This document shows positions 2,757 through 7,783 of a stretch of DNA of 11,342 nucleotides, piece by piece. The stretch comes from an uncultured Fibrobacter sp. Lineage in GTDB: Bacteria > Fibrobacterota > Fibrobacteria > Fibrobacterales > Fibrobacteraceae. Under the pieces are notes generated by a model, which did not search any database, was not told where the DNA came from, and worked only from the letters and a program-made list of their open reading frames with translations. Position 1 is the first letter of the stretch; every line of letters starts with the position of its first letter. Location of the stretch: positions 1 through 11,342 of the forward strand of contig CAMZFJ010000028.1 of NCBI GenBank assembly GCA_947306025.1. Reading direction: 5' to 3'. The position numbers and the translations under genes are program-made.

Positions 2757-2966
2757 AGTTACTAGTTCGTAGTTACTAGAACTTAGAGCTTAGAACTTAG
2801 AGCTTAGAAGAAAGGTATTAGATAACAGGTATTAGGTGCTAGTTTCTTTATAATCGTGCCATAGGTGCCTAACTAATCTGAACCCTAAAGCCTACAATCT
2901 ATAACCTATCTAAGTTCTAAGAGCGAAGCGGTCTAAGTTCTGCCAACTGCGGCAACGCCGCTAACG
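2750..2966. repeat. Two facing arrays of degenerate heptamers filling the ddl-tsaB gap
   Basis: From 2750 to 2847 the sequence splits into fourteen consecutive 7-bp units that all begin with AG (for example AGTTACT, AGAACTT, AGAGCTT, AGGTATT). A 14-nt unit is exactly tandem at 2777-2790 and 2791-2804. After a non-repetitive centre (2848-2868), the opposite polarity appears: CT recurs every 7 nt at 2878, 2885, 2892, 2899 and 2906, and later at 2933, 2940 and 2947. The arms are complementary, with 2789-2801 the exact reverse complement of 2909-2921 (13 bp). GC-rich cores lie at 2918-2934 and at 2949-2961 (GCGGC-AAC-GCCGC). The array enters the tsaB start codon at 2750-2756. No gene or clear promoter is visible in the gap; a forward TATAAT at 2849-2854 points away from tsaB. 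Confidence 0.85.
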
Positions 2967-6261: not shown

Positions 6262-6549
6262 ATGCCTTTTTTCACTAAGAGTAATTTGGAAGATTTGAGA
6301 AAGGAAGCAGACCAGCTTTCTATTTGCGTCGAACATTTTCTGTATGCGGCAGAACACATTCCCGAAAGCGATTGGAAAACGAAAGGTTTTTACGACAATT
6401 GCATCGAAAAATGCAATGGAAGACTCAAGGCTATCCATTTTTTAATGGAATCAATTCGCCGTGGTCGTCCGGTAACTGAAGAGGAACTGGAAGAATCCAG
6501 GGAACTGGAAGACGAAAAACTTTCTAAATTGACAAAAAATGCGAAGTAA
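6262..6549 (+). CDS. Hypothetical protein, 95 aa, coupled to rsgA
   Basis: I do not recognise a family. The product is a small, soluble, charged protein with no signal peptide or membrane segment. It appears mostly helical, with Cys residues at 22 and 48/52 not arranged as a metal site and an acidic, Glu-rich C-terminal stretch (about 73-88, VTEEELEESRELEDEK) likely to be a single helix. The ATG at 6262 is preceded by GGGG at a spacing too short to be a good ribosome site, so the start is uncertain. Its last 11 nt overlap the rsgA start (ATG 6539, stop 6547-6549), which suggests translational coupling and argues that the frame is real. A role near RsgA in ribosome assembly is only a guess from position. 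Confidence 0.7.
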   Translation: MPFFTKSNLEDLRKEADQLSICVEHFLYAAEHIPESDWKTKGFYDNCIEKCNGRLKAIHFLMESIRRGRPVTEEELEESRELEDEKLSKLTKNAK

Positions 6550-7783
6550 CGATTTTGATTCTCTCGAAAATGAAGATGCTCCGTTGAAGAGCGTCCGTAC
6601 GTCTCGGCGCGAACACAGAAGCCGCCGTATTGACGTGATGCGGGAATTGGAATCGGGAGTAGTGGATGAACGCCCTATTAAGGAACGTTTCAGCCGCGAA
6701 TTCAAAAAGGCAAAAATCAAGCGCATCAAGAATCCGGTCGAAAATATCGGTGAAGAAAATTGCGTGGAAGGCCTCGTGCTCGAAGTGCATCGCCGCACCT
6801 GCGAAGTGCGGTTAGACGATAGAACGCTCGCTGACGCGAGCTACAGACGAGAGACGAAAGAAAATACCCCTCTCTCGTCTCTCGTCTACGAGCGAAGCGG
6901 TCTTTCGTCTAATACTGTTACCGCCATGTACCGTGCAACGACCTCCAAGACGCTTGGGGAATTCCCGGCGGTGGGCGACCGCGTTTTGCTTGGGCTTGTG
7001 AACGACGGCGATGACGAAGGCGATGGTGTAGGCTCGCAAAAGTATTGTGTTGTCCGAGTGCTCCCGCGCAAGAGCGAACTCAAGCGCCCGGGCCCGCGCG
7101 ATAGCTTTTACAAGCAGCAGACTCTTGCCGCGAACATTGACCAAGTTGTGATTGTCGCCAGCGTGACGCAGCCGGATTTCAACTACGGCTTCATGGACCG
7201 CTTTTTGCTTGCCGCGAACTTGAACGACTTGCCGTTTGTGCTGGTGCTGACCAAGATGGATTTGCTCCCGAATGGTGAAGCGGACCTTTCAAGCGACATC
7301 CGCGACTTTATGAAAATCGTCGACAAGGTGATTCCCGTGAGCGTGAAAAGCGGCGATGGTCTTGAAATCTTGCGCAATGAGCTGGTCGGGAAATCTTCTG
7401 TGTTTAGCGGAATGAGTGGCGTTGGCAAATCGACGCTCATTAACGAACTTGTTCCCGATGCCGAACTGCGTACGGGGGATGTCCGTGAACGCGATGGTAA
7501 AGGTCGCCATACGACGACATCTTCGAGCTTGTTTGATTTTCCCGGAGGCGGTTACGTGATTGACACGCCGGGCATCCGAAGCATTGGCCTCATGGATATG
7601 GAACCGGAAACGCTTGCCAAGATTTTTCCGGGATTTTTTGATGACGATCACTTTACATGCAAGTTTAGCAACTGCAAACATCTCAAGGAACCGGGTTGCG
7701 CGGTGCGTGCTGCCGTGGAATCGGGCAAAATTTCCGAAGCGCGTTATGCAAGTTATGTGCGAATCTTAAATTCAGGAAAATAG
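6539..7783 (+). CDS. rsgA: Ribosome small-subunit GTPase RsgA, with an in-frame repeat insertion
   Basis: This 414-residue, circularly permuted GTPase of the YjeQ/YloQ family checks late 30S maturation. Order: an Arg/Lys-rich extension (1-75), an OB fold (about 76-175), the permuted G domain, then a zinc knuckle. Visible motifs are G4 TKMD (238-241), G5-like SVKSG (268-272), G1 GMSGVGKST (291-299), the family-specific GRHTTT (322-327), G3 DTPG (342-345) and the zinc ligands Cys374, Cys379, His381 and Cys387. Typical members are about 300-350 aa, so this one is long. The excess comes from the N-terminal extension and from residues 92-126 of the OB fold, encoded by heptamer repeats (6814-6914). 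A second, Asp/Gly-rich loop lies at 154-166. All catalytic parts are intact, so it should work. The start overlaps the preceding stop by 11 nt and has no clear Shine-Dalgarno. Confidence 0.95.
   Translation: MRSNDFDSLENEDAPLKSVRTSRREHRSRRIDVMRELESGVVDERPIKERFSREFKKAKIKRIKNPVENIGEENCVEGLVLEVHRRTCEVRLDDRTLADASYRRETKENTPLSSLVYERSGLSSNTVTAMYRATTSKTLGEFPAVGDRVLLGLVNDGDDEGDGVGSQKYCVVRVLPRKSELKRPGPRDSFYKQQTLAANIDQVVIVASVTQPDFNYGFMDRFLLAANLNDLPFVLVLTKMDLLPNGEADLSSDIRDFMKIVDKVIPVSVKSGDGLEILRNELVGKSSVFSGMSGVGKSTLINELVPDAELRTGDVRERDGKGRHTTTSSSLFDFPGGGYVIDTPGIRSIGLMDMEPETLAKIFPGFFDDDHFTCKFSNCKHLKEPGCAVRAAVESGKISEARYASYVRILNSGK
6814..6914. repeat. Heptamer repeat array inside the rsgA coding sequence
   Basis: The units AGACGAT, AGAACGC (6814-6827) and AGACGAG, AGACGAA, AGAAAAT (6845-6865) all begin with AG in 7-bp steps. 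Opposite them, TCTCGTC is exactly tandem at 6873-6886, followed by TCTTTCG and TCTAATA (6901-6914). The arms 6845-6857 and 6875-6887 are perfect 13-bp inverted repeats around a 17-nt loop. The hairpin core GCTCG/CGAGC (6826-6830 and 6837-6841) lies between the first words. The segment 6887-6903 equals 2918-2934 of the ddl-tsaB gap at 16 of 17 positions. The reading frame stays open through the array and encodes residues 92-126 of RsgA, rich in Arg, Glu and Ser. Confidence 0.85.

Follow-up and report, generated by a model that had tools for sequence, protein, structure and literature searches.

Short palindromes that sit in frame inside bacterial genes, and heptamer arrays inside ORFs, are already known from other bacteria. 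The Rickettsia palindromic elements, as presented in parts of PMC10969869 and PMC3733652, comprise several families that lie in frame in unrelated genes and are translated. Sections of PMC3733652 also describe intragenic REPs tagged with GTAG or CGTC, palindromes of several groups with copies within genes and compensating changes in their stems, and report different REPs near the same recB site in two Xanthomonas species. Arrays of the heptamer TAACTGA occur, according to portions of PMC4679880, in Beggiatoaceae, Cyanobacteria and Bacteroidetes; they are mostly intergenic, some are inside ORFs, and the copies within genes are mostly at protein ends. The QMITE of Coxiella burnetii, in excerpts of PMC5896051, has tens of copies, terminal inverted repeats and overlap with ORFs.

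Here we describe a repeat of Fibrobacter that shares traits with each of these systems. As with the Rickettsia elements, short palindromes lie in frame in unrelated genes, where open frames suggest their translation; going by the descriptions, the two are set apart by the heptamer arms, the two hairpins and the TTAGACGA ends of the Fibrobacter repeat, and by the fact that in Fibrobacter one site holds many different repeats across the genus. The foot of the left hairpin in the copy studied here, CTAC, is GTAG on the opposite strand, a likeness to the GTAG-tagged REPs, but no RAYT was found beside the Fibrobacter repeats in a search of 12 genomes for Y1_Tnp. The seven-base tandem units, some of them within ORFs, recall the TAACTGA arrays, whereas Fibrobacter copies, which are palindromic and have hairpins, also occur within domains. 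As to the long head-to-tail arrays of the STRR type, our copy has two adjacent units per arm, and one G003 array has up to ~10 overlapping three-unit matches. Like QMITE, the family has tens of copies, terminal inverted repeats and ORF overlap; as a difference, no parent insertion sequence or constant target duplication was identified. The Fibrobacter repeat appears to be a separate family from the Rickettsia palindromic elements and the REPs, with a strongly recurrent site. The name Fibrobacter does not occur in the text of PMC3733652, and the matches listed from the open-licence PMC literature include no report of in-frame repeats in Fibrobacter or in its RsgA. As far as the literature was searched, what is new here is the repeat family, the strength of the recurrence at one site, and the phylum.

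The window, that is, the whole stretch of 11,342 nucleotides that we analyzed, carries the gene rsgA with the following features, and one related intergenic copy.

6539..7783, + strand: rsgA, host gene of the insert, encoding the 414-aa ribosome small subunit-dependent GTPase A (ORF, Pfam, Foldseek)
6812..6912, + strand: inserted repeat element of 101 bp, residues 92-125 (terminal inverted repeats as in dispersed copies, family matches)
6812..6823, + strand: left terminal inverted repeat TTAGACGATAGA (ends compared with dispersed copies)
6826..6841, + strand: left inner hairpin GCTCGCTGACGCGAGC (pairing across 35 distinct hairpins of the module)
6845..6861, + strand: left heptamer arm (inverted repeat I18, heptamer units)
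6871..6887, + strand: right heptamer arm (inverted repeat I18, tandem repeat TCTCTCG x2.4)
6888..6901, + strand: right inner hairpin module ACGAGCGAAGCGGT (dispersed copies; absent from the S85 insert)
6901..6912, + strand: right terminal inverted repeat TCTTTCGTCTAA (ends compared with dispersed copies)
2916..2934, + strand: GAGCGAAGCGGTCT module, intergenic copy (19 nt with 95% identity to 6885-6903; direct repeat family D13)

The protein is an RsgA with its usual parts in place: an OB fold, the RsgA GTPase domain (Pfam E-value 7.6e-54) and a putative C-terminal zinc-binding region, in which C374, C379, H381 and C387 are invariant among 59 alignment rows. The top Foldseek matches of the modelled protein are RsgA/YjeQ chains (7boi_W, E-value 1.0e-25), and its sequence is 96-97% identical to database proteins (97% to the RsgA of F. 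succinogenes S85, P0009). The reading frame is kept, as an earlier note on this DNA had stated, open through the array and across the whole of RsgA. The same note called rsgA an essential-type gene, which does not agree with the description of RsgA as nonessential in S. aureus in passages of PMC8579695.

The insert is a palindromic repeat with TTAGACGA...TCGTCTAA ends, GACGARA heptamer arms and two inner hairpins. GACGANA units begin at 6815, 6846 and 6853, and TNTCGTC units at 6873, 6880 and 6903; the array is thus short, with two adjacent units in each arm and one more unit at each end. Its lag-7 identity of 40/96 was reached by none of 1000 dinucleotide shuffles, and none of 300 shuffles attained the 13 bp of its longest perfect inverted repeat. 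The two arms are 94% complementary, and the predicted RNA fold of 6800-6925 has a free energy of -55.1 kcal/mol (z -5.15; 0/200 shuffles as good). The array inside rsgA that the earlier note pointed out is real; comparison with dispersed copies moves the bounds only slightly, from 6814-6914 to 6812-6912. The hairpin foot varies among copies, with TATAG or CTGC variants besides CTAC, and the insert in the RsgA of the cultured S85, 31 aa long, is without the right inner hairpin stretch 6888-6901.

Elsewhere in the window, inverted repeats longer than 9 bp occur in only one other region, near 1501-1531. An intergenic inverted array at 1546-1612, flanked by the ORFs 637-1488 and 1615-2094, has AGTTACTAGTAACTTTGAACTC twice with a spacing of 34, close to a 14-bp perfect inverted repeat. 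The region 2744-2960 is an intergenic composite of several heptamer types, and includes the GAGCGAAGCGGTCT module also found in the rsgA insert. The earlier note took the insert to be of the same kind as an intergenic array. This holds in part: the heptamers at 2744-2835, AGTTCAT and TAGAACT, are not those of the insert, but a 19-nt stretch, 95% identical, is common to the insert and that intergenic region.

That the segment is an intergenic-type repeat follows from its dispersed copies across Fibrobacter genomes. Using the 104-nt insert region as a query against 10 Fibrobacter genomes (counts are lower bounds in 9 of them, where 40 candidates were scored, and include the rsgA copy where present), we find at least 45 matched pieces in G001, 50 in G003, 26 in G101, 50 in G116, 48 in G109, 45 in G118, 55 in G146, 41 in G139, 3 in G002 and 16 in G022; thus, 7 of the 10 genomes have at least 41-55 pieces, and the remaining three have 26, 16 and 3. 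The copies have a common order of modules: one end and a hairpin come first, then heptamers on both sides of a variable core, and then, frequently preceded by another hairpin, the other end. Bounded copies have TTAGACGARAGA / TCTYTCGTCTAA terminal inverted repeats at both ends (one mismatch allowed). Across 35 distinct left hairpins, pairing at the outer 5 positions has a frequency of 0.88, versus 0.537 when the arms are shuffled among copies (maximum 0.663 over 1000 shuffles). Across the phylum, an exact three-unit array is present in 61 of 150 genomes, and a reversed control pattern in 1; one array in G003 has up to ~10 overlapping three-unit matches.

How does the site look in other RsgA proteins? 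We could read 45 of 46 loci from named genomes (the contig of the remaining one begins downstream). In total, 96 of 117 sequences, the window included, match the site motif; 20 of the other 21 are distant RsgAs, and the last is the cut contig. The 96 collapse to 68 distinct Fibrobacter rows. The frame is open across the site in all 96, although the search itself demanded an open frame. The turn has 4-6 residues in 17 of the 68 rows and 10-52 in the other 51, with 29 different lengths; elsewhere in RsgA no length range exceeds 7 residues, except in the N-terminal tail of about 20 residues, which is variable and where some starts are unresolved. In a database search, 118 of the best 120 of 540 passing proteins fit the site motif, and they carry 72 different insert strings, 23-89 aa long. 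Distant RsgAs (43 rows, alignment A2) have 4-8 residues at the turn in 41/41 readable rows, two being cut before it. Close relatives lack the segment or have different content, and the conservation among distant homologs that the earlier note named as its refutation did not occur.

The contents of the turn are many and unrelated. Among them are GACGARA arms, units of CTTCCTA or of ACTCCGA, a 15-nt repeat and palindromes resembling other dispersed repeats; in L004 one such palindrome is nested in a GACGARA insert. The inserts of L022 and L026 are not the GACGARA palindrome; that of L022, in the same RsgA turn, is a non-heptameric tandem repeat of 15 nt (5 codons). The L125 insert reads IPDQVGDD, which we take to resemble a translated dispersed repeat of other bacteria. 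The earlier note proposed to look for length steps of 7 codons (21 nt), and these are not seen: the 21 GACGARA-type rows, of 10-52 aa, leave remainders of 0, 1, 3, 4, 5 and 6 modulo 7. Length variation at the turn arises by module swap.

As to where the insert falls in the protein, a structure model built from a 59-row alignment (mean pLDDT 78.0) places it between strands beta2 (residues 87-92) and beta3 (126-130). Both this model and an alignment with distant RsgAs support the earlier proposal of a turn of the OB fold. The plain disordered loop that a structure prediction was to look for is not supported: the model has a short helix at 94-104, and low confidence at 113-122. Disorder-promoting residues make up a fraction of 0.807 in the inserts versus 0.645 in the RsgA core. 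An earlier model from 16 close sequences had a mean pLDDT of 56.8, and no conclusions were drawn from it; a phmmer alignment to E. coli RsgA, which places the insert against strand beta1-beta2, was distrusted, and a separate alignment was used instead. In RsgA, the h44 of the rRNA is bound by the beta1-beta2 loop (parts of PMC8579695). Judging from strand geometry, the beta2-beta3 turn would face away from h44.

When the eight insert classes are mapped on a core-gene tree of 68 rows, 32 changes are the minimum, and none of 200 label shuffles (mean 41.4) is as low, which tells us that insert classes partly follow kinship; the classes were assigned by motif matching, with some rows ambiguous (L034, L117). 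The G class by itself needs 16 changes versus a shuffled mean of 15.4, no clustering above chance, and short versus long turns need at least 11. The insert type also goes with the resident repeats of the genome. In the 50 genomes whose insert could be read, and with statistics that ignore kinship between genomes, the median number of GACGARA arrays is 41 with a G-type insert (17 genomes) versus 9 without (33 genomes; p = 1.7e-4), and that of CTTCCTA arrays is 7 with a C-type insert (14 genomes) versus 0 without (36 genomes; p = 0.004).

Some species share an insert, and the comparison with its surroundings is informative. In eight hand-picked species pairs with inserts of equal length (two pairs share one insert, and are not fully independent), the inserts differ at 7 of 729 bases versus 76 of 960 in the 60-nt flanks (Fisher p = 1.8e-12). 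At third positions the differences are 2 of 243 in the inserts versus 142 of 640 in 120-nt flanks, and the closest flank differences are 3-37 nt from the insert. An insert so much less diverged than its flanks is younger than the split of the surrounding genes, or was exchanged after it. No shared insert has another full-length copy among the best matches in its own genome; the next-best matches are ~60-80 nt at 74-86%, or ~32 nt at 90-100%. Tree tests, for which, as for the pairs, the groups were chosen after the data had been inspected, reject a clade of four genes with one 84-nt insert (p = 1.4e-5), are borderline for L012 and L042 (p = 0.04), and do not reject a clade for L082 and L084 (p = 0.55) or for L071 and L073 (p = 0.45). 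We read the shared inserts as probable recent arrivals or exchanges, and any exchanged tract would have to be short. Near identity could also come from nucleotide constraint. As its only cause, a strict constraint is made less likely by older pairs that have diverged: L001 and L003 by 10.8%, and L141 and L143, in another gene, at 12 of 110 positions. The contrast between insert and flanks is weaker at a siroheme-synthase locus than in rsgA. Taken with the changes on the tree, the divergence break and the clade test tend to indicate a site refilled or exchanged repeatedly, as opposed to the single insertion or local growth of the earlier note.

Other genes carry such arrays too. In G001 and G003, where 65 of 66 array clusters were retrieved, 28 of these 65 three-unit arrays are within ORFs that stay open for 60 aa or more both before and after the array, some of which may be chance ORFs. 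A Pfam scan of 20 such ORFs gives 16 above the curated cut-off, one sub-threshold (L210) and three without matches. Similar arrays are in frame in topoisomerase III, RsmB and HemD. When the proteins are aligned to solved structures, the position of the RsmB array corresponds to the interval between residues 297 and 309 of E. coli Sun, and the two arrays of topoisomerase III are each in an unaligned gap of their own. In pseudouridine-synthase-like and siroheme-type proteins, the array comes before the aligned catalytic part, between two Pfam domains. From their open frames, these arrays in unrelated genes would be translated. The HemD gene adjoining a siroheme-type gene (L141, 1959-3053) bears further arrays; its relatives L140 and L147 are alike in this segment, and L142 is different over most of it. 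Other palindromes are in frame in the inserts of L004 and L013 and in the ORFs of L172 and L204 (CHPEQSEGSS and PEPSRRAQDD, for example), and more than one repeat family thus seems to enter Fibrobacter proteins.

We have described a dispersed family, a copy of which is in frame in the beta2-beta3 turn of the RsgA OB fold, which agrees with the earlier view of an intergenic-type element tolerated in a protein loop, tolerance being our reading. The Fibrobacter repeats appear to behave as selfish MITE- or REP-like DNA, and one RsgA loop seems to be a spot where they have landed repeatedly. The account that we consider probable is that tolerated repeats of selfish type invade a permissive RsgA loop, swap modules there and spread. 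Repeats would land in many genomic places, and copies in genes would survive if they bring no stop codon, leave the frame intact and lie in a linker or a loop. What would make the RsgA turn unusually permissive is its position, as far as can be told, at the far end of the OB barrel from the h44-binding beta1-beta2 loop. New repeats would replace or remodel resident ones at the turn, inserts may pass between species by short-tract recombination, and the peptide would be translated and tolerated, with no function claimed for it.

Alternatively, the long polar loop could be functional, tuning the binding of RsgA to the 30S subunit or to partners. The 51 of 68 rows with at least 10 residues, the helix at 94-104 and the near identity of shared inserts would fit this, as would the lineage-specific RsgA extension with a function in plant mitochondria described in passages of PMC12672651. 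But 17 of the 68 rows, scattered over the tree, do without a long loop, contents are unrelated between lineages and match the repeats of the genome, similar arrays occur in unrelated genes, and identity extending to third positions is not expected from protein-level selection. We regard a function of this kind as unlikely.

Could the turn instead be a true exchange site, with site-directed movement of cassettes by a homing-like transposase or a guided mechanism, and borders precise to a few bases? We hold site-directed exchange to be quite improbable; if true, it would go beyond tolerance plus ordinary recombination. Two negatives count against the account that we favour: a search for PF01797 found no mobilising enzyme, and short-turn and filled sites placed side by side have borders that vary by a few bases, with no constant target duplication. 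The hairpin foot had suggested a RAYT-driven REP, a candidate that we rejected, with Y1_Tnp in only 3 of 12 genomes and repeat motifs in 0 of 4 Y1_Tnp loci (2.5-3.4 kb each).

The insert might also act as a DNA or RNA hairpin, in the mRNA or the chromosome, with the nucleotides under selection and the peptide a by-product. The strong RNA fold, the left hairpins that differ in sequence yet stay paired, and the nucleotide identity of shared inserts all go in that direction; the divergence of the older pairs, the different inserts of L022 and L026 and the absence of an insert in 17 of 68 rows go against it, and we give this possibility little credence. Slippage within rsgA, expanding heptamers without any invasion, would account for the tandem units of the insert, but the main body of the element is refuted as a local product by the dispersed copies with the same ends, hairpins and module order, the lengths ignore 7-codon steps, and a second repeat is nested in the L004 insert; local growth is very unlikely. 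Just as doubtful is the removal of the insert from the mature protein by ribosome bypass or splicing. Bypassed (hopping) elements are known from yeast mitochondria, and the insert does have a strong hairpin, but bypassed elements need not keep the frame, which is open in the 96 loci found by a search that required this. Finally, most rows are metagenome assemblies, but many independent ones agree, and the cultured S85 with its 31-aa version (P0009, 43 contigs) refutes an assembly artefact or chimeric contigs, which we practically discount.

The repeats at this turn make of RsgA a natural insertion-scanning experiment: a single loop of a conserved ribosome-assembly GTPase holds dozens of different peptides, and relatives free of an insert serve as controls. 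A gut phylum joins the few lineages whose proteins include mobile-type palindromes in translated form, and here one site is shown refilled again and again. The divergence break at the border of the insert makes the age and the route of such insertions measurable. For annotators, indels in the housekeeping proteins of Fibrobacter may be repeat DNA.
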